Origin: Betaproteobacteria bacterium
GTDB lineage: Bacteria; Pseudomonadota; Gammaproteobacteria; Burkholderiales; SG8-41
Length of the DNA: 64,000 nucleotides
Direction of reading: 5' to 3'
Assembly: GCA_021732605.1 (NCBI GenBank)
Contig: JAKFUS010000012.1
Span: forward strand, 1-64,000
Below, piece after piece: positions 12,245 to 52,688 of this stretch. Both the position numbers and the translations under genes were made by a program. The notes under the pieces were generated by a model. The model was not told the DNA's origin and did no database searches. It saw only the letters and a list, made by a program, of their open reading frames with translations. Each line of letters begins with the position of its first letter. Position 1 is the stretch's first letter.

Positions 12245-13588
12245 CTATTTACTTCGGGCACGAGCGGCCAGCAACACCACCACGCCGACGGCCAGCACGA
12301 CCAGTCCGACCAGTGCGTGGGCACCGTGATAAGTCAGGCTGGCATACAACAGATAGCCGCACATCAACACGAACACGGCAGGCAGCACCGGATACAAGGG
12401 CACCTTGAACGGCCGCGGCGCAGCGGGCTCCTTAGCCCGCAGCACGAACAGCGCAATGCCGGTCAGCAGGAAAAAGCCCCAGAACACCGGCAACGAATAT
12501 TCCACCAGGCCCTTGAAGCCGGAGTTCTGCAGGGCGCCGAAACCGACCAGCGCCAGCGCAATCACCCCCTGCACCAGCATCGCGTTCCTCGGCGAACCAC
12601 TCGCCTCGTCCCAGCGACCGAGGTAACCCAGCATCGGCCAGTCACGGCCCAGCGCATAGTTTGAACGCGCGCCGACAATCATCGAGCCATTGACCGAAGT
12701 CAGCGCGGCAATGGCAATCATCACCGCGATCAGTTTTTCACCGGTACTCCCCCACACCGCCTTCAGCAGGTCGGCGGCGACCGCATCCGAACGCGCCATC
12801 GCGTCGTAACCGAGGCCCTTCAGGTACGCCAGGTTGACCAGCAGATAGAGCAGCGTCACCACGCTGATCGCCAGCAGCAGCGCACGTGCCATGTTACGGT
12901 CACGGTCGCGCACTTCAGCGGAAATATACGCGGCATCATTCCAGCCGCCGTAGGTGAACAACACAAAAATCATCGCCGAACCGATGCCGGCGCCCATATA
13001 CCAGGGCTGGCCGGCGCCGGCCGCCGCCGGCACCGCGACCTGCGGCGGTGCCGCGAAAAACAGTCCGGCAACAATGATCAGCACCAGGCCGCCGACTTCG
13101 AGCACAGTGAAAATGTTTTGCGTGGCCTTGCCTTCGCGAATACCGCGGTAATTCACATACGTCAGCACCACCACCACCAGCGCCGCCCAGATCGGTGACG
13201 AATAAGCGCCAAGATTGACCACTCGCGACATGTAATCGCCGAACAGATAAGCAAACACCGCGATTGAGCCGGCGACAATCACCGTCATCCGCGCCCAGCC
13301 GTAGAGGAACGCCAGCGAACGGCCGAAGGCGCGCTGGATGAAGTGATACTCACCGCCCGCGGACGGGAACGCCGTGGCCAGTTCGGCGTAACACAGCGCG
13401 CCGATGATCGAGAAGATGCCGCCGGCGATCCACACCGCATATAACGTGGCCTCGCTGCCGACAGCGCCGGCGACAACCGACGGTGTGCCAAAAATACCGG
13501 CGCCGACGATCAGGCCGACAATCATCGCGCAGGCATCGGTGACGGACAGGGTCTGGCGCGGCGCTGCCGCACTGTTCGGGTTGCTCAT
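12245..13588 (-). CDS. APC family amino-acid/organocation permease
   Basis: A 447-residue integral membrane protein with about 12 hydrophobic segments. The first helix contains the APC signature MIVGLIVGAGIFGTPS, with the broken-helix GxGIF substrate site, and ELATAFPSAGGEYHFIQRAF follows. The C-terminus has FVLRAKEPAAPRPFKVPLYP, as in LAT-like and bacterial APC permeases. The substrate cannot be assigned; amino acids or polyamines are typical. Its start is 24 bases after the stop of a methyltransferase-like gene, so it appears to be the last gene of the exported-methyltransferase operon. That is an unusual partner for an amino-acid permease. Confidence 0.9.
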   Translation of the reverse strand: MSNPNSAAAPRQTLSVTDACAMIVGLIVGAGIFGTPSVVAGAVGSEATLYAVWIAGGIFSIIGALCYAELATAFPSAGGEYHFIQRAFGRSLAFLYGWARMTVIVAGSIAVFAYLFGDYMSRVVNLGAYSSPIWAALVVVVLTYVNYRGIREGKATQNIFTVLEVGGLVLIIVAGLFFAAPPQVAVPAAAGAGQPWYMGAGIGSAMIFVLFTYGGWNDAAYISAEVRDRDRNMARALLLAISVVTLLYLLVNLAYLKGLGYDAMARSDAVAADLLKAVWGSTGEKLIAVMIAIAALTSVNGSMIVGARSNYALGRDWPMLGYLGRWDEASGSPRNAMLVQGVIALALVGFGALQNSGFKGLVEYSLPVFWGFFLLTGIALFVLRAKEPAAPRPFKVPLYPVLPAVFVLMCGYLLYASLTYHGAHALVGLVVLAVGVVVLLAARARSK

Positions 13589-13612
13589 GCGGTTCTCCTC
13601 GGTGATACCTGG

Positions 13613-14533
13613 TTATTTTTCTGCGGCTAGCTCGTCGGCGGCGCGTTTCAGTTCGCCGCGCTGGATCTGCCTCGCACTCCACGGCACCTGCTGCCGCCCG
13701 GCACCTTCTCCGATGACCAGCATGCCCTTGATGGTGCCGTCGCCGATCTGCCCGCTGAACTCGTGCCGCGGCAGACCATCTCGTCCGGCAACCACCATGC
13801 GTATGCTCTCACCCAAGATACGGCCGCGCAGGTCAACGTTACGATCGCGGATTTCGACCTTGCCCTCGATTTCCTGGAATTCCTGCTGCAGATTGAATTC
13901 CAGCGGCGTATCGCGACCGCCGATGTTGACCAGCGACTGCCATTTGCCGGGGACCCGCGCCGGCACCATAAAGTAAAAGAGGTAACTCACGCCCGGGTTG
14001 CCGACTTTTTTCTCGGGTACGATCAGTTCGCGCTGCTCATCAGGATCCCACTCGCCGAGGTGGTAATCGTGGGTCACGATGCGCGTGCCCGGCTTCATCG
14101 CCATGAACTTGGGCCGCAGCCTCAAGTTCATCTCCGGCAGCAGATAGGTGCTGATCACCGTCGCCCGCGACAAATCGGTGGTAAACAGGTTTTCTTCGAT
14201 GAAACGCACCTTGTCGGTGACGCCGGCCTTTTGCGCATTCTGGTTGGCGAGTTTCAACAAGTAGGTGTCGAGATCAACGCCGAACGCGCGGGCGCCGTAT
14301 TTGGTGGCTGCGGTAATGACAAAACGGCCGTCCCCCGAACCGAGGTCGATCAGGAAATCCTTGGGGCCGATCTTGGCCATTTCCAGCATGGTATCGACGA
14401 CGATCTGCGGCGTCGGTACATACACCACGTCGCCGCGGCCATCCTGGGCAACAGCCGGCAATGACAGCCCGCTCAGCACCAGCGCCATGCCGGCCAGTGT
14501 TTTTACAATGTTCAACATGCTTGCCATTTTCAT
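13613..14533 (-). CDS. Exported FAM173-like methyltransferase, copy 6 of 6
   Basis: 306 residues. The signal peptide is cleaved near LSLPAVA. VYVPTPQIVVDTMLEMAKIG comes next and corresponds to the pre-motif of FAM173/ATPSCKMT-type lysine methyltransferases. SAM-binding motif I is LIDLGSGDGRFVITAA and the following acidic strand is AFGVDLD. The segment TDLSRATVISTYLLPEMNLR leads to TRIVTHDYHLGEW. After residue 200 a beta-rich tail of about 100 residues is shared with its five neighbours. The ATG at 14533 has an AAGGAG ribosome site. It lies 28 bases after copy 5 and 24 bases before the permease. The SAM site is intact but the signal peptide predicts a periplasmic location, where SAM is not known to be abundant. 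The substrate is unknown. Confidence 0.82.
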   Translation of the reverse strand: MKMASMLNIVKTLAGMALVLSGLSLPAVAQDGRGDVVYVPTPQIVVDTMLEMAKIGPKDFLIDLGSGDGRFVITAATKYGARAFGVDLDTYLLKLANQNAQKAGVTDKVRFIEENLFTTDLSRATVISTYLLPEMNLRLRPKFMAMKPGTRIVTHDYHLGEWDPDEQRELIVPEKKVGNPGVSYLFYFMVPARVPGKWQSLVNIGGRDTPLEFNLQQEFQEIEGKVEIRDRNVDLRGRILGESIRMVVAGRDGLPRHEFSGQIGDGTIKGMLVIGEGAGRQQVPWSARQIQRGELKRAADELAAEK

Positions 14534-14561
14534 CACCGCTCCTTGTTTGGACTGCCGACCA

Positions 14562-15422
14562 CTACAGGCCGCCGATATTGATTTTGCCTGTTTTAATCCG
14601 TTCCGCCCGCCACGGCAGCGCGCGCTCGCCGCTGCGCAGCACAACCTCGCCGGTGATCCTGTTGCCGTCGATGCGCCCGGTATAACGCTGGACATCCGCG
14701 GTGCCGGACAGCGTAAAACTGACTGCATCTCCCTTGACCCGTGCATCACCCAGCCGCAGCGGCTGGCCTTGTGCCACGGCAGCCCCCACCAGCATCTGGA
14801 ATTTCTGCTCCAGGCGCAACTCGTAAGCGGCGCTCCCCGGCAGCGACCACTGCCAGACGCCAGCCATATTGGCCGGCACAACCCACAGCATGATATCGCT
14901 GCGCGGCGGGCCGTAGGGCTTGTCGGGCACATCGATGGTGATTTTCTGATCGGGCGACCAATCGGAAAAGTCAAAATCATGCGACACAATGCGCGTGCCC
15001 GGCTTCAACTGCTCAAACAGCAGCGGCCGCAGTTGCAGATTGATCGATTGCAGCAAATAGGTCGTCACCACGGTGGCACGGCTGATGTCGGTGCTGAACA
15101 GATTGCGTGCTTCAAACACCAGCTTGTCCGCCACGCCCTGTTTGCGCGCATCGGCGAGCGCCATGCGCACCAGTCTGTCGTCAAGGTCCACTCCCATGCC
15201 GCGGGTGCCGAAACGGGTTGCAGCACGGATCGAAATGCGTCCGTCGCCGGAACCGAGGTCGATCAGATAGTCATCGGGGCCGACACCGCCCAGAACGAGC
15301 ATCGCATCCACCACGTTCATGGAGGTCGGCACATACGGCACATCGGACGCCCGCAACGCGACGGCATGCCAGCACAATGCTGCGAGTGCGATGACACCAC
15401 AGCGCCGCAGCAGCGTAATCAT
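14562..15422 (-). CDS. Exported FAM173-like methyltransferase, copy 5 of 6
   Basis: 286 residues with the shortest leader of the set (MITLLRRCGVIALAALCWHA, cleavage near LRA). VPYVPTSMNVVDAMLVLGGV is the pre-motif and LIDLGSGDGRISIRAATRFG is the SAM-binding loop. GMGVDLDDRLVRMA, TDISRATVVTTYLLQSIN and TRIVSHDFDFSDW follow in family order. Its ATG overlaps the stop of copy 4 by four bases (ATGA), so the two are translationally coupled. The C-terminal beta-rich domain ends WRAERIKTGKINIGGL. All catalytic-region motifs are retained although the sequence differs clearly from its neighbours, which argues for an old duplication kept by selection. Confidence 0.82.
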   Translation of the reverse strand: MITLLRRCGVIALAALCWHAVALRASDVPYVPTSMNVVDAMLVLGGVGPDDYLIDLGSGDGRISIRAATRFGTRGMGVDLDDRLVRMALADARKQGVADKLVFEARNLFSTDISRATVVTTYLLQSINLQLRPLLFEQLKPGTRIVSHDFDFSDWSPDQKITIDVPDKPYGPPRSDIMLWVVPANMAGVWQWSLPGSAAYELRLEQKFQMLVGAAVAQGQPLRLGDARVKGDAVSFTLSGTADVQRYTGRIDGNRITGEVVLRSGERALPWRAERIKTGKINIGGL

Positions 15423-16288
15423 GGCACGGCGCGCACGGCACGCCAGCCGTGCACGGTTTGCGTGATGCCGGTGCCGCGGCGGAACCGGCCTTCGATCACA
15501 TCGCCACTGACACGGCCCTCAAAATAAAGGCTGGCTTCGCTGTCACGGTCGCGGTCATCGACAATGATGAAACTCAGCTGGTCACCGGACAGTCGCGATT
15601 CCCAGACTTGGGCATGGCGGCCGTCGAAACGCGCGAAACCGTCGACTTCCTGGAATTTCTGCCGCAGCTCCAGCGTGATCGAGTGCGCGGTTGCGGATTG
15701 ATCAGCGCCGGGCAGCGAAAATTTCATGTCCCATTTACCTGCTATTTTTGCCGGCACGATCCACAAAAAAGCGTTCTTGCGGATCTGGGTTGTTGCATCC
15801 GGGATCCAGTCCTCGAGCCGGAAGTCATGTGACACCAGCCGCGTTCCCGGCTTCAGGTTGAGCAGCGCCGGCCGCAGCCGCATCATCACGCCGGGCAGCA
15901 GGTACATGGTGATGACGGTTGCCGGGCTGATATCGGTTTTGAACAGATCCTGTTGCAGGAATTTGGCGCGCTCGGCAACACCCGCCGCCGCTGCCGCGTC
16001 AACACTCTCCGCAACCAGATCGCCATCAAGATCGACACCCAAACCTCGCGCGCCGAATTTTTTCGCCGCGGTGATCAGCACGCGGCCGTCACCGGAACCG
16101 AGATCCATCACAAAATCCTGCGGGGTCACCTTGGCCAGCCGCAACATTTCCTCGATCACCACGTACGGCGTCGGCACAAACGGCACATCAAACTGCCATT
16201 GCAGTTGCTGCGCCTGGGCGCGCGGCAGGACCAACAGCGCCAGTCCGGCTGCCAATAAAAAATTATTTAAAAACAATAACTTGCGCAT
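15419..16288 (-). CDS. Exported FAM173-like methyltransferase, copy 4 of 6
   Basis: 289 residues. The leader MRKLLFLNNFLLAAGLALLV ends in PRAQAQ, a normal signal-peptidase site. VPFVPTPYVVIEEMLRLAKV precedes FVMDLGSGDGRVLITAAKKF and GLGVDLDGDLV. TDISPATVITMYLLPGVMMR and TRLVSHDFRLEDWIPD complete the methyltransferase half. The C-terminal half is strand-rich (WIVPAKIAGKWDMKFSLPG onward). The start is 18 bases after the stop of copy 3, and the end overlaps copy 5. The first codons are unusually AT-rich for this genome, from the runs encoding Asn-Asn-Phe and Lys-Leu-Leu-Phe. Confidence 0.82.
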   Translation of the reverse strand: MRKLLFLNNFLLAAGLALLVLPRAQAQQLQWQFDVPFVPTPYVVIEEMLRLAKVTPQDFVMDLGSGDGRVLITAAKKFGARGLGVDLDGDLVAESVDAAAAAGVAERAKFLQQDLFKTDISPATVITMYLLPGVMMRLRPALLNLKPGTRLVSHDFRLEDWIPDATTQIRKNAFLWIVPAKIAGKWDMKFSLPGADQSATAHSITLELRQKFQEVDGFARFDGRHAQVWESRLSGDQLSFIIVDDRDRDSEASLYFEGRVSGDVIEGRFRRGTGITQTVHGWRAVRAVP

Positions 16289-16306
16289 AATCCTATTACG
16301 GCATTC

Positions 16307-17209
16307 TTATTGCGGCATTATTTCCCGGATCACCGGCGGCGGCGCGGTGACATGCAGCGGTTCCTGGATTTCGATGCGCACCGCGCTCCATGCCACGGAT
16401 TGGCCACCACCATCCATGCTGCGCATCTCACCTTCAAAGGCTTGATTGATCCGCCGCCCACTGAACAGGACTCGACCGCGCTCGGGCAACATCAAAGTGA
16501 CTTCAACCACGCGTCCTGTCAGCGTAGCGCGCTCGACCGGCACCCTGCGACCGTCGAGTTTCGCCGCAGCTTCCAGCTTCTGGAAATTCTGACTGAGCGA
16601 CAACTCCAACCACTGCTGCCTGCCGCCAATATCCAGCGGCCAGGTCCAGCGTCCCGCAACCTTGTCGGGCACCACCCAGTACAAGACTTTGCTTTTCTGC
16701 GAACGTCCGACCGGTTTGCCCGGGGCATCCATTTCGTATTCGGTATCCGGCAGCCAGTCACCGATGCCGTAGTCATGCGACACGATGCGCGTCCCCGGCG
16801 CCAGCGCCAGCAGCTTGCTGCGCGCCATCAGGTTCACTTCGGGCAGCAGGTAAATCGTAATCACCGACGCCGGCGAGAGGTCGGTTTCGAACAGGTCGCG
16901 GGCATAAAACTTCGCGCGGTCTGCAACACCGGCCTTGCGCGCATTGGCGTTGGCCAGTTTCACCAGCCGCTTGTCGAGGTCGACACCGAAACCGCGTGCA
17001 CCGCGTTTTTTTGCCGCGGTGATGACCATGCGGCCGTCACCGGAACCGAGGTCGATCACATAATCCTTGTCGGTCACCTTCGCCGTTTCGAGCATTGCAT
17101 CGACGACGTTCTGCGGCGTCTGCACATAAGGGGTGTCACCAAAGTCCTGCGCCTGCACCGTCGCCACCAGGGCCAGCAACAAGGTGCCGGCCATATTCCG
17201 CATCCACAT
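16307..17209 (-). CDS. Exported FAM173-like methyltransferase, copy 3 of 6
   Basis: 300 residues. The short signal peptide (MWMRNMAGTLLLALVATVQA) is followed almost at once by TPYVQTPQNVVDAMLETAKV. Motif I is YVIDLGSGDGRMVITAAKKR; GFGVDLDKRLVKLANANAR is the acidic strand and helix. TDLSPASVITIYLLPEVNLM and TRIVSHDYGIGDWLPD follow. The C-terminal domain is like the others but carries an extra Pro/Val/Ile-rich tail (about 20 residues, PLHVTAPPPVIREIMPQ). Its ATG shares one base with the TGA of copy 2 (TGATG), which implies coupled translation. Confidence 0.82.
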   Translation of the reverse strand: MWMRNMAGTLLLALVATVQAQDFGDTPYVQTPQNVVDAMLETAKVTDKDYVIDLGSGDGRMVITAAKKRGARGFGVDLDKRLVKLANANARKAGVADRAKFYARDLFETDLSPASVITIYLLPEVNLMARSKLLALAPGTRIVSHDYGIGDWLPDTEYEMDAPGKPVGRSQKSKVLYWVVPDKVAGRWTWPLDIGGRQQWLELSLSQNFQKLEAAAKLDGRRVPVERATLTGRVVEVTLMLPERGRVLFSGRRINQAFEGEMRSMDGGGQSVAWSAVRIEIQEPLHVTAPPPVIREIMPQ

Positions 17210-18114
17210 CAGTCAATTACCCCCAAGCCAGCGACGCGCGCTGCGCGCTCGGCGATCCATTCCACACGCGCCGTCAGGCGGCCGCCCGACAGCGTAGCCT
17301 GGCCGATGATGCGGCTGCCATCAACACTGCCGCTGAACTCATGCTTCACCGGCGCGTCATTCACATCCGCGGTGAACGAGAACGTCAGCTCCGCACCGCG
17401 CAATTTTGCATCGGTGATTTTCACCGCACGGCCGTTGACCTGCACCGAGCCGCTGACCATCTGGTATTTCTGCTCAAACATGAATTCATAGGTCTGCGGC
17501 TTGCCGGATACCGGAAACTGGGAGCGCCAGCCACCGCCTGCTTTCGCCGGCACCACCCAGAAATACACATCGCTGTCACCGCCGGCGCCGGAAAACTTGT
17601 CGGCGGCGTCCATGCGCGTCGACGCATCGGCTTTCCAGTCGCCCATGTCGAAATCGTGCGACACCAGACGCGTACCCGGCTTCAGGTCCAGCAGTTTCGG
17701 CCGCAGTTCCAGGTTGACCCGCGGCAACAGGTACATGGTGATCACCGTCGCCTGCGTCAGGTCCGTGTCGAACAGGTTGCGCTGGTAAAACGCCACCTTG
17801 TCGGTAACGCCGTTTTTGCGCGCATTGGCGTTCGCCTCGTCAATCCGCACCGGATTCAGATCCACGCCGAAACCGCGCGCGCCGAATTTTTTTGCGGCGG
17901 TGACAACGATGCGGCCATCACCCGAGCCGAGGTCGATCAGGTAATCCTGAGCCGTGACCTTGGCCATATTCAGCATGCGGTCGACCACTGCCTGTGGTGT
18001 CGGCACGTAAGGCACACTTGGCTGGTCGCCCGCCGCGTGCGCGCCCGATGCCATTAATCCGGCACAAGCCAGTGCCGGCAGCATTTTATTAAGCATCATT
18101 AACAGTCGCTGCAT
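17209..18114 (-). CDS. Exported FAM173-like methyltransferase, copy 2 of 6 (first of operon)
   Basis: 301 residues, first gene of the five-copy run. I placed the start at the ATG at 18114 because GGAGG lies five bases upstream; longer readings are less natural. The leader ends in MASGAHAAG. VPYVPTPQAVVDRMLNMAKV, YLIDLGSGDGRIVVTAAKKF, GFGVDLNPVRIDEANANARK, TDLTQATVITMYLLPRVNLE and TRLVSHDFDMGDWKAD are all present. The beta-rich C-terminal domain begins around YFWVVPAKAGGGW. Relatives in eukaryotes (FAM173A/B) trimethylate lysines of inner-membrane proteins such as ATP-synthase subunit c, which suggests a protein-lysine substrate, but this is inference. The promoter should lie in the 18115-18289 gap shared with the divergent gene. 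Confidence 0.83.
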   Translation of the reverse strand: MQRLLMMLNKMLPALACAGLMASGAHAAGDQPSVPYVPTPQAVVDRMLNMAKVTAQDYLIDLGSGDGRIVVTAAKKFGARGFGVDLNPVRIDEANANARKNGVTDKVAFYQRNLFDTDLTQATVITMYLLPRVNLELRPKLLDLKPGTRLVSHDFDMGDWKADASTRMDAADKFSGAGGDSDVYFWVVPAKAGGGWRSQFPVSGKPQTYEFMFEQKYQMVSGSVQVNGRAVKITDAKLRGAELTFSFTADVNDAPVKHEFSGSVDGSRIIGQATLSGGRLTARVEWIAERAARVAGLGVID

Positions 18115-18289
18115 GATCGCCTCCATGGCACACTGCTCAGCCTGTGCATCGATTGGATTTGGAACCATCGCCACGCGCGGCTCACTATTGCATTTTCAGT
18201 CACCTGGATGAGACTGCGCCTGTGGTAGATTGGCGGCGAATTATAACCGACCATTTTCGCTTTCCACTCTGCCTTTCCACCTCATTTCC

Positions 18290-19894
18290 ATGCCCGCAGT
18301 TATCCTTTTCACCCTGATCTTCATTTCCGGCGGGGCAATCCTGGCGCTCGAACTGCTGGCCTCACGCATCATGACGCCCTATTTCGGCGTCAGTCTCTAC
18401 ATCTGGACCGGAATTCTGTCGATCACGCTGGTCTCATTGGCACTCGGTTACCGGTGGGGCGGCCGCCTCGCCGGCAACGCCGGTGCCGCACCGGCACGAC
18501 GCCTGGGCCTGCTGTTCGCCATCATGCCGGCGCTGGCCGGACTGGCGATCATCGCCGCCTGCGCGATTTATCCTTTCGCATTCCATCCGCTGGCGCGCTG
18601 GAGCCTGAGCGGCGGCGCCTTCGCCGCGTGCATGATCCTGCTGTTCCTGCCGCTGGTCGCCACTTCGGCGATGAATCCGCTGCTGGTGGCGCTGCTGCTG
18701 CAGCAACAGCAGAAACGCAAAGGAGATGCCGGTTCCGGCCTGGTGTTTTTTGTCAGTACGCTCGGCTCCGTCGCCGGCGTGATCATCACCGCCTTCGGTT
18801 TGATCCCCTACATCAGCAACTACACTGCGACATTGATGGTCGCGCTGCTGCTGGGCACGCTGTCACTGGCCGCAGCAATGTCAAAGCTGGTCATGGGCGG
18901 CCGCGGCATGGTCACCACCCTCGGCATCGCCGCCATGTTCGGCGCCGCGCTGCTGGCGTGGCAGGGCGACCGCTACACCGGGCGTATGGGCACGGTAGCC
19001 TTCAGCGGCGCACAGTGGCAGGTCGAGGGCAGCCACAGCTCGCTGTTTGGCACTGTGAAAATCCTGCGCAGCAGCGCCGACGCCGACGGCAAATTCCTGC
19101 GCATGTATTTCCATGACGGCCTGATCCAGAACAGCGTCGATTCAAACCAGCGCTCGATTTCCTTTTACACCTGGGCGCTGGAGGCGCTGGCACTGGCCTA
19201 TCGCCCACAGATGCAGGATGTGCTGATGCTCGGTCTCGGTGCGGGCATCGTGCCCTCACGCCTCGCACGCGACAGCACCCGTGTGTCCGTCGTCGAAATA
19301 GACCCGGCATCACTGGCAGTGGCACAGCAATATTTCGGATTTGATGCCAAACGTGTCACCACGCACCAAGCCGATGCGCGGACGTTTGTCGGCGACTGCG
19401 CGCCGCGCCACGACGTGGTGCTGGTCGATCTGTTTCACGGCGACGGCACGCCTGATTACCTGATCACGCGCGAATTTTTCCGTGACCTGAAACGCTGCCT
19501 GAAACCCGGCGGTGTGGCGATTTTCAACACCTTCGCCAACCTTGATGACACGCGCAGTTATTCCCACTTGCTGGCGACCCTGCAAAGCGAACTGCCGCAT
19601 GTCGCGCTGTACCGGCCCGACTGGCCCGGTGCGCGGCAGATCAACAGTTTCCTGGTGGCATCACCGGCGCAACTGCCGGCACCGCAGCGCGTGACCATCA
19701 GCGATGTGCCGGAGCGCCATGCCGCCACGCTGTGGGACATGCTGGCGAAACCGCAGAGCGTCGGCACCATGGCCGCATCCGGGAAAATCATTTACGACGC
19801 ATGGAATGCCGCGGCGCTGGACATGGCTGCCAGCCAGGCCGCGTTCCGGCAGGGAGTGCTGGATGCCGCCCCGCCGGCATTGCTGATGAACTGA
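18290..19894 (+). CDS. Membrane-embedded spermidine-synthase-like protein
   Basis: About 534 residues. The N-terminal half has about seven hydrophobic segments; the first contains GGAILALELLASRIMTPYFG, the usual opening of fused transporter-like/spermidine-synthase proteins. The soluble C-terminal half (about residues 240-500) is a polyamine-synthase-type Rossmann domain with LMLGLGAGIVPSRLAR, VSVVEIDPASLAVA and HDVVLVDLFHGDG. The usual catalytic DxxDP after strand 4 is replaced by DLFHGDGTP, so aminopropyl transfer is doubtful. I start at the ATG at 18290, since it begins directly with the membrane segment; a TTG at 18230 is an alternative. It is divergent from the exported-methyltransferase operon and separates it from copy 1, so it may belong to the same system. 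Confidence 0.82.
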   Translation: MPAVILFTLIFISGGAILALELLASRIMTPYFGVSLYIWTGILSITLVSLALGYRWGGRLAGNAGAAPARRLGLLFAIMPALAGLAIIAACAIYPFAFHPLARWSLSGGAFAACMILLFLPLVATSAMNPLLVALLLQQQQKRKGDAGSGLVFFVSTLGSVAGVIITAFGLIPYISNYTATLMVALLLGTLSLAAAMSKLVMGGRGMVTTLGIAAMFGAALLAWQGDRYTGRMGTVAFSGAQWQVEGSHSSLFGTVKILRSSADADGKFLRMYFHDGLIQNSVDSNQRSISFYTWALEALALAYRPQMQDVLMLGLGAGIVPSRLARDSTRVSVVEIDPASLAVAQQYFGFDAKRVTTHQADARTFVGDCAPRHDVVLVDLFHGDGTPDYLITREFFRDLKRCLKPGGVAIFNTFANLDDTRSYSHLLATLQSELPHVALYRPDWPGARQINSFLVASPAQLPAPQRVTISDVPERHAATLWDMLAKPQSVGTMAASGKIIYDAWNAAALDMAASQAAFRQGVLDAAPPALLMN

Positions 19895-19971: not shown

Positions 19972-20838
19972 TCAGGACCCTTTGCTCGCGCTCCAGCGCA
20001 TAGCCTTGCCATCGCCGAAATTCGCGGTGCCTTCCATTCGATTGCCGTTGACCTTGCCGGAAAACTGACCGCGAGTTGCACCTTGTAACAGCACAAAATT
20101 GATTTCAGTGCCCTTCATCTTCGGTTCGAGCAAGCCGGCCTGACGCCCCTTGGTCTCGACCGTGCCCTCAAGGTTCTGGTAACGCTGCTTCAGCACCAGG
20201 CTGTATTCGCCACCACCGTCAAGCTGCAAGCGCCAGGCGCCCTCAACCTTGGCCGGCACGATCCACAGGTACAGGGTCGCATGCGGCACGCCGGAAATGA
20301 ATTCCTTCTCCGGCACATCGAAACTGAGATCATCATCGTGCTGCCACTCGTCGAAATGATAATCGTGCGACACGATGCGCGTGCCCGGTTTCAGCTCGTT
20401 GAACAGCTTGGGCCGCAGCCGGCGCATGAACTCCGGCAACAGATACAGCGTGACTACGGTGGCTTTGCTGACGTCCGTCTTGAAAATGTCCTTGGCTTCA
20501 AACAGCACCCGCCCGGAAACACCAAGGCTTTTTGCGCGCAGGTTGCTGAGCCGTATCAGCTCCTCGTCGATGTCGACGCCATAACCGCTGGATTTACGCT
20601 GGTGGGCCGCCGTGAGCACGATGATGCCGTCACCGGAACCGAGGTCGATCACATAATCACTCGCGCCGACATTGGCCAGAGTCAGCATCTGGTCCACCAC
20701 CACGTTCGGCGTCGGCACATACGGCCCGCCTTCGCGTTCGTATTCCGGCGGCACATTCGGCTGTTTTTGCGCCCCAGCCGCAATGCACGCCCACATCATC
20801 CCCGTCACCACTGCTGCTGACCGCCAACCGCTTTTCAT
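19972..20838 (-). CDS. Exported FAM173-like methyltransferase, copy 1 of 6 (separate)
   Basis: 288 residues from the ATG at 20838, which has a GGGGGAAG ribosome site; an upstream in-frame reading from 20892 would bury the signal peptide. The leader ends in CIAAGAQ. The pre-motif is GPYVPTPNVVVDQMLTLANV and motif I is YVIDLGSGDGIIVLTAAHQR, where the usual Arg after GDG is Ile. GYGVDIDEELIRLSNLRAK, TDVSKATVVTLYLLPEFMRR and TRIVSHDYHFDEWQHD follow, then the strand-rich C-terminal half. It is the most divergent of the six and is split from the other five by the oppositely oriented spermidine-synthase-like gene. The small exported protein gene lies just upstream on the same strand. Confidence 0.82.
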   Translation of the reverse strand: MKSGWRSAAVVTGMMWACIAAGAQKQPNVPPEYEREGGPYVPTPNVVVDQMLTLANVGASDYVIDLGSGDGIIVLTAAHQRKSSGYGVDIDEELIRLSNLRAKSLGVSGRVLFEAKDIFKTDVSKATVVTLYLLPEFMRRLRPKLFNELKPGTRIVSHDYHFDEWQHDDDLSFDVPEKEFISGVPHATLYLWIVPAKVEGAWRLQLDGGGEYSLVLKQRYQNLEGTVETKGRQAGLLEPKMKGTEINFVLLQGATRGQFSGKVNGNRMEGTANFGDGKAMRWSASKGS

Positions 20839-20901: not shown

Positions 20902-21204
20902 TCAGCGGCGGGTGGCGCCGCCTTTGCTCGCAGCGCAGGTTTCGGCCAGCTCATGGATGGAAATTTCACTGGTGAACGTCAACCGCACCGCGCGCCGCAT
21001 CATCGCCAGCTCGTCGGGCTTGAAGCGTTCGCGCAAATCGCCTTTTTCGGTTTCAGCCATCACCTGGTTCAGTGACGCGCCGCGATCACGCATTTCCAGG
21101 CCCGCCTGCGCCCCGGCAACAATCTGCTCACAGGTCAATGCGCTCTGCGCAGACGCCGTAACACTGCACAGCACACTCAATAATCCGAACAACACACGCA
21201 CCAT
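20902..21204 (-). CDS. Small exported hypothetical protein
   Basis: About 100 residues. The signal peptide (MVRVLFGLLSVLCSVTASAQ) is followed by a short helical mature part with two cysteines (LTCEQIV near the start, AETCAASKG near the end). The ATG at 21204 is better spaced from a GAGGGT ribosome site than the ATG at 21210. The gene starts about ten bases after the stop of the acyl-CoA dehydrogenase gene and ends 63 bases before methyltransferase copy 1, so it could be co-transcribed with either. It resembles short periplasmic proteins of unknown function; no family is recognised. Confidence 0.65.
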   Translation of the reverse strand: MVRVLFGLLSVLCSVTASAQSALTCEQIVAGAQAGLEMRDRGASLNQVMAETEKGDLRERFKPDELAMMRRAVRLTFTSEISIHELAETCAASKGGATRR

Positions 21205-21214
21205 GTCCATACCC

Positions 21215-47601: not shown

Positions 47602-50328
47602 TTATGCCACAGTCCGCTGTTCGTACAGATATTTCTGAAACCCGCTGAACACCTGGCCGATTTCCTCGGGCTGCCCGAGGTCGGCGACGGCATCCGCCAG
47701 TGAATCGTGGTACTGCAGTCGCAGCAGCGGCGTCAGCTTTTCCTGATCCAATTCCTCGACGCCGACGCTGATGTAGTGCGACAACACGAAGTCGATGAAC
47801 ACCTGCTGCTTGCCATTGAAATGCGTGCTGACCACGGCCATCGCACGATTGGCGCGCTCCTCGCGCGTCAGCGGTGCCAAGGCATAAGCGACATGGGCCA
47901 GCACATCGAACAAGTCGCTCTTTTCGGCATCGATAATTTTCTGCATCTCTGTCAGTTGCTGTTTACCGAAGCCTTTCTCGGCCAACCCATCCAGCAGTTT
48001 CCGACGAGTGTCCGGCGCGCTCCACAGCTTGCGCAGTTCACCTTCATCCCGGAAAAACTCCGGCAGTTTGCCGAACAGCGCCTCCATGAACTGCTGCGCT
48101 GACATCGGCGTACCGTCCGGATGCCAGAAACTGGTCGATGTCATGTGCTGGATGGTCCGTGCCTTGCCGTCAGCGAGCTTGACCTTGGCCTTTTGCGGCG
48201 GCACGTAATCCGGCGGGGTTTGTCTCGCCTTGGGCGGCTGACGATCGCCACCATCGGGTTTCGGCGGTTCCGGCTCGATCGGTTCGCCATCCCACTCCGG
48301 GTCACTGAAATGGTGATGCGCCTTCACAAAATCGTAGATCGTGAAGTAATCCTTGCCGTCATACAGTCGTGTGCCGCGGCCAATGATCTGCTTGAACTCG
48401 ATCATTGAATTGATCGGCCGCAGCAACACAATGTTGCGTACGTTGCGGGCATCCACACCCGTTGAAAGTTTTTGCGACGTGGTCAGGATGGTGGGAATGC
48501 TCTTCTCGTTGTCCTGGAAGTCACGCAGGAACTGCTCACCCAATGCACCGTCGTTGGCCGTGACCCGCTCGCAGTAATGCGGGTCGCTGCTGGTTTTCAT
48601 CTGGTTGACCAGATCACGGATCGCCAGCGCATGCGCTTGGTTGGCGCAAAACACCAGCGTCTTTTCCCGTTGGTCAATTTGCGCCATGAAAATCTCAACG
48701 CGTTTTTTCTCGCGCTCACGGATTTCGATAATCTTGTTGAAATCCTTTTCCTCGTAACGCCTGCCGGCCTCAATCTCGCCCTCGACCACGGTGTCATCCG
48801 GCGTAAACACGTATTCGTCCATCGTAGTCGCGATCTGCTTGACGCGGAACGGCGTCAAGAAACCGTCATTGATGCCTTCCCGCAGCGAATACACAAACAC
48901 CGGCTCACCGAAATAAGCATAGGTATCGACGTTGTCGCGGCGCTTGGGTGTCGCAGTCAGCCCAAGCTGCACCGCGGGCGCGAAATAATCGAGGATGCTG
49001 CGCCAGTTGCTTTCATCGTTGGCGCCACCACGGTGACACTCATCGATGACAATGAAATCGAAAAAATCTGGCGGATACTCCCCGAAATTCCCTTCGACAG
49101 GCTCAGGGACCGCCCTCTCCTCGACAGGACCTACCGGAGTCTCGGTGGCTGAGCCCGTCGAAGCCGAAAGTGCTGGAAGGCTTTGGGTATCGCCCGTGAT
49201 CAGAGCAATTTTCTTCGCCCTACTCCAACCCTGCACCTGTTTCTCGCGTTCAAAAGCCTCGTCGATTCGATCGAACGGTTCGTAATAGACCAACGCGACC
49301 GGTCGTCGTGCTTTAGTGTGCTGCACGCCTTCCCCCGTTTCATGTTGGATGAGCCGCGCCTTCAAATCTTTCGCGCTACCAACATAGAAACTTCCATCCG
49401 CACATTCCAAAATATACATATATCCGTAAGCATCGCGAATATCAGTCGTCTCGATTTTGATCAGATCAGTTCCCGCCGAAGCCCCGGTGGCTGAGCCTGT
49501 CGAAGCCATGAAGGTCTGGAATATCGTAAAGAAAATACTGCCGTTCTTTGGCACCCGCCCCTTCTTGCGGATGTCATCGGGCGCAATGCGCACCAAAGAT
49601 CCCGGCTCAGCATCCTCGAACGCCGAAAACGCGTTGTAGGCCTGGTCAGCGAGGATATTGCGATCAGCAAGGAACAGGATGCGCGGCCGGCGCTGCGGTT
49701 CCGCGCCCGACTTGTGGTCGAGCAGATTCCAGCGGCTGTTGTAGAGCTTCCACGCCAGTTGGAAAGCAATGAAGGTCTTGCCTGTTCCGGTGGCCAGCGT
49801 CAGCAGCACACGGTCGCGGCCCTCAGCAATCGCCGCCAGCACGCGATCAATGGCGATGTCCTGATAGTAACGGCCCTGAAAATAACCGCCCCTGTCCTCG
49901 AAAGGCACCGCGGCGAAGCGGTCGCGCCAGATGTTTTGTGTCGCATACAGCCGCTGCCACAGTTCTTCCGGCCCCGGAAATTGCGCCACCTCGGCCTCGG
50001 CCCCGGTGTGCATGTCGATGGCGTAGATGCCCTGGCCGTTGCTGGAATAGGTAAAGCGGATCGCCAGCTTCGCGGCGTAATCCTTGGCCTGGCCCACGCC
50101 CTCGGTCAGCGGCTTGTCCCAGGCCTTGGCTTCGACCACCGCGAGTTTGGTATTACGATACTCCAGCACATAGTCCGCAGTCAGCGCCTTGCCGCGTTTG
50201 CCTGCGCCTTCAATGCGCCCCGGCGCGATCGCATACTCGCGCCGTACCCGGCTACCATCGACCACGCCCCAGCCCGCAGCCTTGAGGGCGGGGTCGATAT
50301 GTTCAGCGCGGGTTTCGGCTTCGTTCAA
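47602..50328 (-). CDS. hsdR: Type I restriction enzyme R subunit with internal GIY-YIG domain
   Basis: 908 residues. An N-terminal PD-(D/E)xK nuclease (ADYVLEYRNTKLAVVEAKAW) is followed by a superfamily 2 helicase: Walker A LATGTGKTFIAF (about residue 175), DECH box VIDECHRGG (about 430) and IGRGTRLYDGKDYF (motif VI). Between motif I and the DECH box, residues about 275-412 form an in-frame insertion with a complete GIY-YIG nuclease-like domain (YMYILECADGSFYVGS, ARLIQHETGEG, EAFEREKQVQGWSRAKKIAL). HsdR with HsdM/HsdS cuts unmodified DNA after translocation. The gene is separated from hsdMS by three toxin-antitoxin-like genes. Confidence 0.92.
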   Translation of the reverse strand: MNEAETRAEHIDPALKAAGWGVVDGSRVRREYAIAPGRIEGAGKRGKALTADYVLEYRNTKLAVVEAKAWDKPLTEGVGQAKDYAAKLAIRFTYSSNGQGIYAIDMHTGAEAEVAQFPGPEELWQRLYATQNIWRDRFAAVPFEDRGGYFQGRYYQDIAIDRVLAAIAEGRDRVLLTLATGTGKTFIAFQLAWKLYNSRWNLLDHKSGAEPQRRPRILFLADRNILADQAYNAFSAFEDAEPGSLVRIAPDDIRKKGRVPKNGSIFFTIFQTFMASTGSATGASAGTDLIKIETTDIRDAYGYMYILECADGSFYVGSAKDLKARLIQHETGEGVQHTKARRPVALVYYEPFDRIDEAFEREKQVQGWSRAKKIALITGDTQSLPALSASTGSATETPVGPVEERAVPEPVEGNFGEYPPDFFDFIVIDECHRGGANDESNWRSILDYFAPAVQLGLTATPKRRDNVDTYAYFGEPVFVYSLREGINDGFLTPFRVKQIATTMDEYVFTPDDTVVEGEIEAGRRYEEKDFNKIIEIREREKKRVEIFMAQIDQREKTLVFCANQAHALAIRDLVNQMKTSSDPHYCERVTANDGALGEQFLRDFQDNEKSIPTILTTSQKLSTGVDARNVRNIVLLRPINSMIEFKQIIGRGTRLYDGKDYFTIYDFVKAHHHFSDPEWDGEPIEPEPPKPDGGDRQPPKARQTPPDYVPPQKAKVKLADGKARTIQHMTSTSFWHPDGTPMSAQQFMEALFGKLPEFFRDEGELRKLWSAPDTRRKLLDGLAEKGFGKQQLTEMQKIIDAEKSDLFDVLAHVAYALAPLTREERANRAMAVVSTHFNGKQQVFIDFVLSHYISVGVEELDQEKLTPLLRLQYHDSLADAVADLGQPEEIGQVFSGFQKYLYEQRTVA
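49092..49505 (-). mobile_element. GIY-YIG domain element bounded by inverted repeats, inside hsdR
   Basis: The segment is 414 bases, a multiple of three. It is bounded by CTTCGACAGGCTCAG (49092-49106) and CTGAGCCTGTCGAAG (49491-49505), an inverted pair, with an extra CTGAGCCCGTCGAAG at 49149-49163. The repeat encodes low-complexity STGSATG- and PVEG-type peptides. CTTCGACAGGCTCAG-type repeats are widespread in proteobacteria and often flank small GIY-YIG genes. The reading frame through hsdR is kept. Confidence 0.72.
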
Positions 50329-50359
50329 GAGAGCACTTTGGGGCTTTGGAAAGGGATAA

Positions 50360-50842
50360 TTACCTAAAAACCGCGCCCGACTGCTTCAGATACTCCACGA
50401 ACTTCTTATGAGGCACCGCGACTTGCGGCATTGCACATACAGCAGGAATTTTTCGTTTTGAGGGTACTCTTGGTACAGCCGGTTGCCTCTCCTCCTCTGA
50501 AATTAACTCCGCACCGACCGAACGAGCTGCGGCGATAATCAAGAGATCATTCTCACCAACGCCTTTTGCGTGATAACCGTCATCTACGATAGCGAGTAAT
50601 CCTTTAATTCGTTGCGCATCCCGGAGGATCTCACCGGTGATTTCCAGAATAGCCACCCCTTTATCTTCCAACCAAGCCCCGCAGTCAGGGCTCTTGGCCT
50701 GTATCTCATCAAACGCCACCTTGGGAATACTAATTGCATCGCTTCGAATTTGCCCTTCAATCCATGTCCAGAGAGGCGGAAATTGCTGGGGTGGATAGTT
50801 GTCCCACGCATAAATCACTGAAGAAGCATCAAAGACCGGCAT
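50360..50842 (-). CDS. DUF4411 / PIN-like protein, likely toxin
   Basis: A 160-residue protein beginning MPVFDASSVIYAWDNYPPQQ, the start of the DUF4411 family, which is thought to be PIN-like. An early Asp (FDASS) and later acidic residues (GENDLLIIAAA) suit a metal-dependent RNase site. It overlaps the ImmA-type gene by 14 bases, and this two-gene arrangement (XRE-ImmA-DUF4411) is a known toxin-antitoxin-like pattern. The activity is inferred from family and context. Confidence 0.78.
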   Translation of the reverse strand: MPVFDASSVIYAWDNYPPQQFPPLWTWIEGQIRSDAISIPKVAFDEIQAKSPDCGAWLEDKGVAILEITGEILRDAQRIKGLLAIVDDGYHAKGVGENDLLIIAAARSVGAELISEEERQPAVPRVPSKRKIPAVCAMPQVAVPHKKFVEYLKQSGAVFR

Positions 50843-51980
50843 AGTGCTGCTCCAGCTTATGCAGGTCGGTGATCTTCAAGGTGTCCAGATAGGAACTAGC
50901 CTTGGCTAACGTAATCTGTCGCGCATTGAGTGCACTTAAAACAGTTTTTACAAAAGTATCGCCGAAGACATGCTTTGGTTCGCGATGCCTGTAAGCACGA
51001 CTACCGCCCTCATCATCTCTCCCTACCGCAACATTCGCTCGCCATGTGCGATATGCGGTATAGAGATTCCTTTCCAAACGACCCTGGTCCATCAAGCGCC
51101 TCAGAATCACCTCGACGCTGACCCCCCACTCCCTCCTAGGCTGCTCCAGCCAATTCTCGAACTCCGTTACATCGTTTGGCCGCGCACGATCAGATATTCG
51201 CGCCAGAAAACCATCCGGCACCAAAAATCTTCCGGCAAAAGCATTGGCTTCCCTCTCCCAGCCCTGCTGGGACGCAAAGTCATTTTCATCGTCAATAGAG
51301 CTTTCCCGGTGCAACAACACGTGTGCAAGTTCATGGATGAGCGTAAAAGATTGCCTTGGCTCATAGGACAACTTCTTCACTACGATCACTGGACACTGAG
51401 GATCGTATAAAGAGAATCCTAAAATCGGACTTTCTTTGGCAATCTGCCATTGCCCTTTGTAGCCATTGCTGCGGAACACCAAAATGCCCTTTGCCTCCAC
51501 CGCAGCGCGATAAGTGTCAAAGGTATTTTCTGCACCGATCGCAAGCCACTCCCTCGCCAATCGAGCGGCCTCCGGCACATCATTTGCTGGCAATGGAGGT
51601 GGATCGAATACCGCCTGCTCGACATCGTCCAGGTCTTCCTTGAGACTCAGATAAACGTCGCGCTGTCGCTCCACTCGCTCAATCAGTGTTTTGAGTTTTG
51701 GGGACAGCTCTGGTTTTTGGTTAGCCAAGGATCGGAATTGCGGGGTATGGGCATTTGCCTCATTAACGGGGTCAGGCTCGATAAAGAAAAGTACCCCTCT
51801 ACCGAAAAAATCAGCAATTTTGCGGAGCTGTTTGTAGGTTAAGCCAGCGGACTCCGGACCAAGCTGTTCCAACGTGGCAACCGCAATACCCGTTTCGCGC
51901 GCGAGATCCGTCAACGTGATGCCGCGATCAGCGCAGCACCAGCGAATACGTTCGGCGTTAACAAACGGTATGCGTTCCAT
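50829..51980 (-). CDS. XRE-family HTH plus ImmA/IrrE metallopeptidase
   Basis: A 383-residue protein with an N-terminal helix-turn-helix (CADRGITLTDLARETGIAVA, about 15-35) and a C-terminal ImmA/IrrE peptidase with FTLIHELAHVLLHRE (HExxH near residue 220) and the downstream Glu region WEREANAFAGRFLVPD. Such proteins act as antitoxin-regulators or phage-type repressor proteases. It overlaps the DUF4411 gene by 14 bases, so the two are coupled. Base composition here is less GC-rich than the core genome around it. Confidence 0.87.
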   Translation of the reverse strand: MERIPFVNAERIRWCCADRGITLTDLARETGIAVATLEQLGPESAGLTYKQLRKIADFFGRGVLFFIEPDPVNEANAHTPQFRSLANQKPELSPKLKTLIERVERQRDVYLSLKEDLDDVEQAVFDPPPLPANDVPEAARLAREWLAIGAENTFDTYRAAVEAKGILVFRSNGYKGQWQIAKESPILGFSLYDPQCPVIVVKKLSYEPRQSFTLIHELAHVLLHRESSIDDENDFASQQGWEREANAFAGRFLVPDGFLARISDRARPNDVTEFENWLEQPRREWGVSVEVILRRLMDQGRLERNLYTAYRTWRANVAVGRDDEGGSRAYRHREPKHVFGDTFVKTVLSALNARQITLAKASSYLDTLKITDLHKLEQHYAGL

Positions 51981-51991
51981 TTTCCAGAGAA

Positions 51992-52564
51992 CTACCCAAA
52001 GTCGATCAAAACGATTGGATTATCCGCCAAAACGCGATTGACGAAGGAATCTGCCTCGGTGCGGCGTTTGGCGAATTCAGCCGGCATGTACAGCGTCGGA
52101 TTCACCTTGCGCCCGAGCAGGACCTCGGCATGCGCCAGCGTCTGCAGCACGCGCGAAAGAGTGAGTTTGCCACCGCCGACGATCATCACGTCGATGTCGC
52201 TGCCGGCGGTATCCGTGCCCTTGGCATAGGAACCGTAAATCCACGCGCCGTCGATATCGGCGGCCAGCGGCTGCAGAGCATCACGCAGCAGCGGCTCCGC
52301 ACCCAGCGTCTTGCGGGTCAGTTCGACCAGCTCTTCAAAAACGGGACTTTGCGGGTTGGCGCGGAAGCGGCGCAGATTGCCCACCCGCTCCGACAGCACC
52401 AGGCCGGCATCGGCCAGCCGGTTCAGTTCGCGCTGCACGGACGCGCTGCTCAGGCCGGTCAGCCGGAGCAGTTCATTGAGATGAAACTCGCGCTCAGGCT
52501 GGCCGAAGACCCAGCGGAACACGCGGGACTGGCCTTCAGTAAACAGGGCGGTGGTGATCGACAT
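51992..52564 (-). CDS. Winged-helix regulator fused to nucleotidyltransferase domain
   Basis: 190 residues. The N-terminal winged helix is FHLNELLRLTGLSSASVQRE, and GLVLSERVGNLRRFRANPQS is the wing. The C-terminal nucleotidyltransferase has GAWIYGSYAKGTDTAGSDID (GSxAKG and DxD). Related proteins are MNT-like antitoxins or regulators; the fusion suggests self-regulation through the HTH. An inverted repeat 12 bases upstream of the start is a likely operator. It lies between hsdS and the ImmA gene, oriented the same way. Confidence 0.85.
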   Translation of the reverse strand: MSITTALFTEGQSRVFRWVFGQPEREFHLNELLRLTGLSSASVQRELNRLADAGLVLSERVGNLRRFRANPQSPVFEELVELTRKTLGAEPLLRDALQPLAADIDGAWIYGSYAKGTDTAGSDIDVMIVGGGKLTLSRVLQTLAHAEVLLGRKVNPTLYMPAEFAKRRTEADSFVNRVLADNPIVLIDFG

Positions 52565-52575
52565 GGCCGGATGCT

Positions 52576-52610
52576 AGCACGGTCATGCTTAAATTGAGCA
52601 TGATCGTGCT
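52576..52610. promoter_or_regulatory. Inverted-repeat operator upstream of HTH-nucleotidyltransferase gene
   Basis: Arms AGCACGGTCATGCT (52576-52589) and AGCATGATCGTGCT (52597-52610) match with a single mismatch around a 7-base spacer; a half-site TAGCATGAT follows at 52617. The position just upstream of a winged-helix gene suggests autoregulation. Confidence 0.75.
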
Positions 52611-52650
52611 AATTTTTAGCATGATTTAATGAGTGCCAGAGCGGGGGTTA

Positions 52651-52680
52651 TTATAAGTATTTGTTTTTATTGATATTTTA
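52651..52680 (+). repeat. Dispersed AT-rich motif, copy 4
   Basis: TTATAAGTATTTGTTTTTAT then TGATATTTTA, close to the consensus. It lies between the hsdS stop and the HTH-nucleotidyltransferase gene's upstream region. On the minus strand its far end reads TTATAATA, a -10-like hexamer pointing to that gene. Confidence 0.6.
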
Positions 52681-52688
52681 TAAGGAAT

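Follow-up and report, generated by a model that had tools for sequence, protein, structure and literature searches.

Methylation that depends on S-adenosylmethionine (SAM) is generally regarded as cytoplasmic in bacteria. What, then, could be the role of a run of methyltransferase genes whose products begin with export-type leaders and which ends in a gene for a membrane transporter? This question is raised by a locus in a 64,000-nucleotide stretch of DNA (hereafter the window; contig JAKFUS010000012.1 of assembly GCA_021732605.1, from a bacterium of the Burkholderiales), in which six divergent methyltransferase paralogues (c1 to c6) lie near a permease of the APC (LAT) type. We found that an export-leader methyltransferase and such a permease form a pair that recurs in two phyla, which makes SAM in the periplasm, and its delivery by a permease, concretely testable. 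In our judgment the chances are about even that the locus as a whole is devoted to extracytoplasmic SAM-dependent methylation, probably of proteins, with the permease moving SAM, S-adenosylhomocysteine (SAH) or the substrate.

Organization of the locus

Five of the paralogues and the permease lie next to each other on the minus strand in the order c2 (17209 to 18114), c3 (16307 to 17209), c4 (15419 to 16288), c5 (14562 to 15422), c6 (13613 to 14533) and permease (12245 to 13588). Gene boundaries were taken from open reading frames (ORFs) and start codons, and the resulting coordinates bear out the close packing described in the original prediction, with overlaps or gaps of under 30 bases throughout. 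The genes c2 and c3 overlap by 1 base and c4 and c5 by 4, while gaps of 18, 28, and 24 bases separate c3 from c4, c5 from c6, and c6 from the permease. For c2 we used the ATG at 18114, which is preceded by GGAG; the GTG at 18174 in the ORF list is probably too early. The ATG of c6 is preceded by AAGGAG, and the listed TTG at 14989 is spurious.

The first gene of this presumed operon, c2, is divergent from a plus-strand gene (18230 to 19894) for a protein with seven predicted transmembrane (7-TM) segments and a spermidine-synthase-like domain. That gene in turn is convergent with c1 (19972 to 20838, minus strand), which lies downstream of an acyl-CoA dehydrogenase gene. Transcription on the minus strand thus runs from the acyl-CoA dehydrogenase gene through a gene for a 102-residue protein and c1 and, past the opposite-strand 7-TM gene, through c2 to c6 and the permease. 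The 7-TM gene between c1 and c2 had gone unremarked in the original prediction, as had three further strong homologues at other places in the genome. Promoter-like sites at the locus (1, against 2.7 in shuffled sequence) and terminator-like sites (10 against 8.6) show no excess, and for this reason a single transcript for c2 to c6 and the permease is argued from gene spacing.

Relationship of the copies and conservation of the SAM pocket

The copies c1 to c5 share 38 to 46% identity with c6. None of the six departs from the DLGSGDG loop, in line with the intact SAM loop described earlier. All six match class I methyltransferase, DOT1, and aKMT models (PF13847- and PF08123-type), and the best NCBIfam match of each is NF041081, an archaeal protein-lysine methyltransferase (101 to 124 bits). 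An aKMT-type domain with both the pre-motif and the SAM loop is present, and the proposed kinship with FAM173 is supported in silico. The closest characterized relative is aKMT, to which FAM173B is distantly homologous (PMC9006661; this source and the two cited below are used from excerpts). The window's genome holds nine strong homologues, namely the six copies and the three elsewhere, plus three weak ones.

An AlphaFold2 model of mature c6 (m4c12a49de499) had a mean predicted local distance difference test (pLDDT) score of 94.1. Its N-terminal domain matched 5bxy, a complex with SAH, at Z 27.2 and a root mean square deviation (rmsd) of 1.1 Å over 154 residues, and the model matched aKMT complexes with SAH and SAM at Z 26.9 and 25.8, respectively. 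By sequence, too, 5bxy and the aKMT entries are the nearest solved structures.

Conservation was assessed from 458 distinct homologous cores, 415 of which span the whole domain and enter the counts. The motif-I Asp and first Gly are present in 415/415 and the remaining DLGSGDG positions in 405 to 414, while the ribose-binding position is D or E and the strand-3 position D or N in all 415. In class I methyltransferases, these conserved positions contact SAM, and loss of SAM binding would hardly produce such a pattern. Beyond the SAM loop, P148, G149, and R151 are kept in 413 to 414 of 415 domains (R151 in 414), H155 in 398/415, D156 in 380/415, and W162 in 408/412; the R, H, and W are common to aKMT as well, which has E at the position of D156.

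In a FastTree phylogeny of 196 rows, each window copy falls into its own orthologue group, with at most 10% repeated loci. Counting the window, the groups comprise 27 loci for c1 (29 rows), 31 for c2, 33 for c3, 31 for c4, 25 for c5 (26 rows), and 35 for c6 (38 rows). The groups of c1 to c5 are well separated; that of c6 is the weakest (support 79) and includes two scattered copies. The ratio of nonsynonymous to synonymous substitution rates (dN/dS) of the six copies against two relatives was 0.11 to 0.26, which together with the conserved pocket led us to reject a decay of spare copies, as retention of the SAM loop had already been taken to indicate.

A conserved pocket need not mean catalysis, and the proteins could instead be binders of SAM, SAH, or a related nucleoside that work outside the membrane and pass their ligand to the permease for scavenging. 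Such a role would suit both the retained pocket and the permease as usual neighbor, and it would remove the problem of a methyl donor. However, the residues beyond the SAM loop (R151, H155, D156, and W162) are nearly as conserved as the loop itself, three of them being common to aKMT, and a single ligand would hardly account for six or more diverged copies in a genome. We consider scavenging by non-enzymes quite improbable, and the earlier suggestion of a fold repurposed for another ligand is likewise disfavored by the conservation beyond the loop.

Export-type leaders

By eye, the leaders of all six window copies are Sec-like. The predicted AxA-like site is found in five of them, with A or V at position -3, whereas c5 has Leu there. 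For a broader view, a crude test was applied to 413 leaders, which remained from the 458 cores after 40 without the loop pattern and 5 without a start codon had been dropped; it asked for a hydrophobic core of 11 residues, a positive N-region, and an AxA-like site. All three features were found in 358/413 leaders (hydrophobic core, 395; AxA-like site, 382; positive N-region, 398) and in 6/89 controls (HtpG, 4/53; acyl-CoA dehydrogenase, 2/24; EAL protein, 0/12), the controls being given any start within the first 90 frame residues and the methyltransferases one best start. Read as sequence patterns, these leaders speak against the cytosolic or matrix location of the aKMT/FAM173 group for the proteins studied here.

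Not all leaders are of the ordinary kind. Twin-arginine (Tat)-like leaders number 22/413 by a strict sequence pattern, which is a pattern and not a predictor. Lipobox-like leaders were judged by eye in four sequences (L205/L272, L207/L230, L271, and Leptolyngbya L301), from which the lipobox claim is drawn, as the 13/413 hits of a lipobox pattern mostly strike ordinary leaders. The presence of several export routes within one family would argue that the destination, and not an anchor, is selected. A leader is absent in three relatives (L269, L270, and L276) and ambiguous in L236, none of which adjoins a permease. We also noted a 14-gene methyltransferase array (genome G048, contig C11; L239 and L298) in which several leaders are Tat-like.

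These data bear on two other explanations. According to the first, which the original prediction had raised, the enzyme is active in the cytoplasm and is tethered to the membrane by a leader that stays uncleaved, much as FAM173 acts on the matrix side; FAM173B carries a putative membrane anchor at its N terminus, and the ANT lysine methylated by FAM173A faces the matrix (PMC9006661). Yet the positive N-regions and AxA-like sites predict a domain outside even if the leader stays uncleaved, and some relatives have Tat-like and lipobox leaders, so that we find a cytoplasmic anchored enzyme very doubtful. The second holds that each enzyme is already folded, with one SAM bound, when it is exported, and then acts once or carries the SAM out. 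Tat-type leaders would allow this and the Tat-like matches are compatible with it, but the leaders mostly look Sec-dependent, as do all six of the window, and Sec is a route for unfolded protein; a single turnover per protein would also be costly. We give next to no credence to this explanation.

Pairing of methyltransferase and permease across genomes

Within the window's family (37 genomes searched, including the window's), all 37 genomes carry 5 to 18 homologues at E ≤ 1e-15. Neighborhoods were compared in 33 cluster regions, which came from 31 of the family's 36 other genomes. As far as the contigs reach, these regions show c1, the opposite-strand 7-TM gene, c2 to c6, and the permease, apart from some losses and additional copies; the permease follows the methyltransferases in 31 of the 33, and the other two hit a contig end. 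The idea of a cluster unique to this organism is ruled out by its presence in 31 other genomes of the family. Because HtpG and acyl-CoA dehydrogenase are also conserved there, gene order within the family is weak evidence when taken alone, and the weight lies on pairing outside it.

In broader searches, a homologue at E ≤ 1e-25 was found in 60/300 genomes of the order (nine from the window's family, its own included) and in 9/398 of the phylum; for the class, the count was 9/369 (the window's own genome again included in both). From part of the positives of these searches, 33 genomes outside the family were chosen for having the methyltransferase. One region, L231, breaks off at a contig end immediately upstream of its copy; the copies on contigs C71 and C276 of G062, along with some of those of G038 and G041, lay outside the comparison. 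The original prediction held that the idea of an exported system would fail if the genes were commonly single copies lacking the permease. Outside the family they are indeed often single or scattered, but a permease stands beside at least one copy in 22 of the 33 genomes (21 from a set of 60 regions, plus the cluster of G041). In the 60 regions, a permease lies no more than 500 bases from 23/77 methyltransferase genes, in either order and in 22 of the 23 cases on the same strand; 8 of these 23 methyltransferases have one domain only. The 14-copy array of G048 ends in a permease, and a 7-TM gene on the opposite strand flanks its far end.

How often such neighbors would arise by chance can be estimated from a PF13520 search of 18 genomes, which found 39 genes, between 0 and 7 per genome, across about 73 Mb and hence, by arithmetic, a chance of ~0.2% per gene. 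A PF13520 gene lies beside a methyltransferase in 12 of these 18 genomes and is the sole one in G075, G099, G136, G270, and the window's own genome, which is 96.5% complete and was searched at E ≤ 1e-10.

Plasmids extend the pattern. Among 72,556 plasmid records, five hold a relative of c2 at E ≤ 1e-15, and the permease is next door on plasmids of Agrobacterium salinitolerans, Chelatococcus sp. CO-6, and Leptolyngbya boryana IU 594; the relative on a Gloeothece plasmid has no adjoining permease. Of the distinct contexts, 3/4 are paired, a second Leptolyngbya record having two matches at the same coordinates. Searching plasmid records with the permease returned four methyltransferase-bearing paired records at 46 to 47% identity and a Gemmatirosa plasmid at 38%, on which no methyltransferase match lay within 4 kb of the permease. 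Since the three pairs are on plasmids of cultured organisms, they can be tested without growing the uncultured host.

The two-gene unit is found in at least Pseudomonadota and Cyanobacteriota. In these comparisons, the recurring unit is a methyltransferase plus a permease, of which the five-gene operon is an expansion in one lineage. Of the explanations offered in the original prediction, delivery of the cofactor, perhaps by the permease, gains strength. Separately, we noted homologues in environmental metagenome-assembled genome (MAG) records that bear the title Bordetella parapertussis or Klebsiella pneumoniae (L050, L056, L059, L060, L072, L077, L093, L094, L108, and L114); the titles look misassigned.

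Apparent replacement of the permease at its slot

The window permease matches PF13520 at 188.8 bits (gathering cut-off, 27), and its nearest solved relatives are 9h76 and 6f2g (about 3e-54). The 33 permeases at the locus, taken from the window, 31 regions of its family, and G041, form two lineages of 21 and 12 rows, one on each side of a branch with an SH-like approximate likelihood ratio test (SH-aLRT) value of 100, and their mutual identity averages 48%. Both lineages occur inside the window's genus, where L127 and L134 differ from the rest, and the c2 to c6 copies of these two are still 70 to 86% identical to those of the window despite the different permease. It looks, from these identities, as if the permease had been replaced in situ, and such a refilling of the slot suggests a need for a permease at the locus. 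Six other genomes among the 398 of the phylum have a permease at 44 to 53% identity, four of them paired with a methyltransferase and two unpaired.

The C-terminal barrel

Modeled alone, the C-terminal domain of c6 (pLDDT 89.5) is an eight-stranded barrel, in agreement with the shared beta-rich domain that had been predicted. Its structure matches are mostly avidins, with streptavidin at Z 14.1 (1.7 Å over 94 residues), closely followed by a quinohemoprotein amine dehydrogenase domain (Z 13.2) and designed barrels (Z 12.9). The best Foldseek match is rhizavidin (E 1.1e-3), in a list that also holds the peptide-binding barrel GID4. In sequence, the best PDB match had an E value of 0.83, and in Pfam ten families were each matched by 1/74 members at E up to 0.1, none of them by the c6 domain. 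The barrel has conserved G-x-W and W-x-A-x-R motifs at its start and end, respectively, which presumably recall the calycin signature. Of the two points that structure prediction had been proposed to settle, the SAM pocket agrees with SAM- and SAH-bound structures (Z 26 to 27), and an avidin-like fold class is likely for the modeled barrel as a structural likeness, kinship with avidins being unsupported.

This second domain resembles ligand-binding barrels such as avidins, and the most frequent neighbor is a carrier of the amino-acid type (LAT-like), both of which would suit exported enzymes that methylate a small molecule or lipid in the periplasm, with the permease importing or exporting that compound. 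Against this, one-domain versions without the barrel also adjoin the permease (the 8 of 23 adjacent genes noted above), SAM would still be needed outside, and the characterized relatives aKMT and FAM173A/B act on protein lysines (PMC9006661, PMC5828452). We regard a small-molecule substrate as unlikely.

The 7-TM spermidine-synthase-like protein

The 554-residue product of the 7-TM gene matches NF037959 (MFS_SpdSyn) at 172.5 bits, above the 40-bit cut-off. It has seven hydrophobic segments, and its Lys and Arg residues number 10 on the N-terminal side against 4 on the other, a charge bias that weakly predicts a catalytic domain outside. In a crude scan, its homologues showed 4 to 7 segments, with seven in 16/83, and 15 of those 16 had more Lys and Arg on the N-terminal side. 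Spermidine synthases need the acidic D/E of GxG(D/E)G (PMC10349129). The window protein has GLGAG instead, and the Ala is found in 46/46 distinct homologues with a recognized motif (the motif went unrecognized in 15/61). Spermidine synthesis is disfavored, the acid for decarboxylated SAM being missing. The protein is probably a membrane-anchored methyltransferase facing the same outside compartment. As a part of the core unit, the 7-TM gene was rejected outside multi-copy clusters; besides the G041 cluster, it was found only in G048 among the 60 regions.

A proposed model of extracytoplasmic methylation

In the reading that we prefer, six aKMT/FAM173-type SAM-dependent methyltransferases would be exported to the periplasm, where they would most likely methylate protein lysines, each on its own envelope target, with the avidin-like barrel probably helping to choose or hold that target. 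The APC permease, their usual partner, would most likely move SAM out, and SAH or methionine back, across the inner membrane, and the 7-TM "spermidine synthase" would probably act as a membrane-anchored methyltransferase facing the periplasm. SAM carriers that serve mitochondria, on whose imported SAM FAM173A/B rely, and the Golgi offer an analogy for the permease. The reading builds on the homology, the fold, the intact pocket, the export-type leaders, and the recurrent pairing; the chemistry, the compartment, the cargo, the protein substrate, the role of the barrel, and the orientation of the 7-TM protein are inferred. A stricter version proposes a dedicated SAM economy outside the cytoplasmic membrane, in which the permease exports SAM or swaps it for SAH and the exported enzymes, joined in multi-copy loci by the 7-TM methyltransferase, methylate proteins of both periplasm and envelope. 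We hold this version only tentatively and would put its chances at somewhat below even.

Several observations weigh against the model. We know of no source of SAM in the bacterial periplasm, and none was found among the matches listed in the open-licence PubMed Central (PMC) literature. The scores of all six copies lie below the curated NF041081 cut-off of 200 bits, and the proteins are therefore termed aKMT homologues here and not equivalog members. Hydrophobicity alone, as one element of the leader test, also passes in 11/12 EAL controls (HtpG, 8/53; acyl-CoA dehydrogenase, 4/24). The nearest solved permeases, 9h76 and 6f2g, are named amino acid/polyamine transporters, and permeases at 36 to 45% identity occur without a methyltransferase in 7/7 regions fetched, which rules out a permease type exclusive to the pair. 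Outside the family, 11/33 genomes have no permease beside the examined copies; G058, G185, and G221 lack any PF13520 match, and G074 and G593 have a single one elsewhere. Scattered extra copies are mostly unpaired (9/9 regions in G041, 5/6 in G046, 3/4 in G994, and 3/4 in G038). Since genomes keep the methyltransferase without the permease, the latter is not strictly required, and our claim for it is limited to that extent.

Each of the proteins belongs to a known superfamily; a dedicated SAM economy, if it exists, would make the whole a categorically new system. If the permease does place SAM in the periplasm, methylation of envelope proteins, a SAM transporter in bacteria, and a topological counterpart to the FAM173 of mitochondria would follow. 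Among the matches listed in the open-licence PMC literature, none dealt with exported FAM173-like methyltransferases of bacteria or with periplasmic methyltransferases.

Other features of the window

The 102-residue protein (20902 to 21210, minus strand) encoded between the acyl-CoA dehydrogenase gene and c1 has an export-type leader followed by two cysteines. Relatives occur in 14/33 regions of the window's family (38 to 77% identity) and in G041 (33%), and searches of Pfam and NCBIfam with it gave no match. Farther along, the stretch from 47602 to 55270 holds genes that we take to be type I restriction-modification-like, together with a presumed ImmA/IrrE-like gene; its G+C content is 0.53 at 50 to 54 kb against about 0.60, and it is perhaps an acquired island. 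Within it, a presumably HsdR-like type I restriction frame (47602 to 50328, minus strand) encloses a segment that we take to be GIY-YIG-like, between short repeats translating to STGSAT and PEPVEG.

Comparison with known systems

With aKMT (5fa8, 5fad, and 5jwj; NF041081), the window proteins share the whole methyltransferase domain, including the YVPT pre-motif, the DLGxGDGR loop, and the TRxVSH segment, and 5fad and 5fa8 match c6 at the Z scores of 26.9 and 25.8 given above with 36 to 37% identity. In its solved form, aKMT consists of one domain of about 160 residues and has no leader, whereas the window proteins have an export-type leader, often a barrel, and a permease as neighbor. The closest solved structure, 5bxy from Salinibacter ruber (46% identity over the 154 aligned residues), was named an RNA methyltransferase by its depositors and, unlike the window proteins, has one domain only in the crystal.

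FAM173A (ANT-KMT) and FAM173B (ATPSc-KMT), both distant homologues of aKMT, are membrane-associated and act on inner-membrane proteins, and no barrel domain is described for them in the excerpt of PMC9006661, whereas the window copies carry one. They act on the matrix side, the topological cytoplasm, while the window domain is predicted to lie outside.

The 7-TM protein can be compared with NHMT, an N-terminal histidine methyltransferase of filamentous fungi that resides in the endoplasmic reticulum (ER) and methylates secreted proteins (PMC10349129). At 558 residues, NHMT is close in length to the window protein and has seven transmembrane helices, as predicted for the latter, followed by a spermidine-synthase-like domain without the D/E of GxG(D/E)G, and SAM supply is named as a possible limit for it in the ER (PMC10349129). 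Its 7-TM domain is found almost only in Pezizomycotina, according to the same excerpt, and the window protein would resemble NHMT in how it works and is not a member of its family. The window permease, finally, shares PF13520 with LAT-type APC permeases (9h76, 6f2g, and the SLC7 carriers), and its genomic partner is a methyltransferase.

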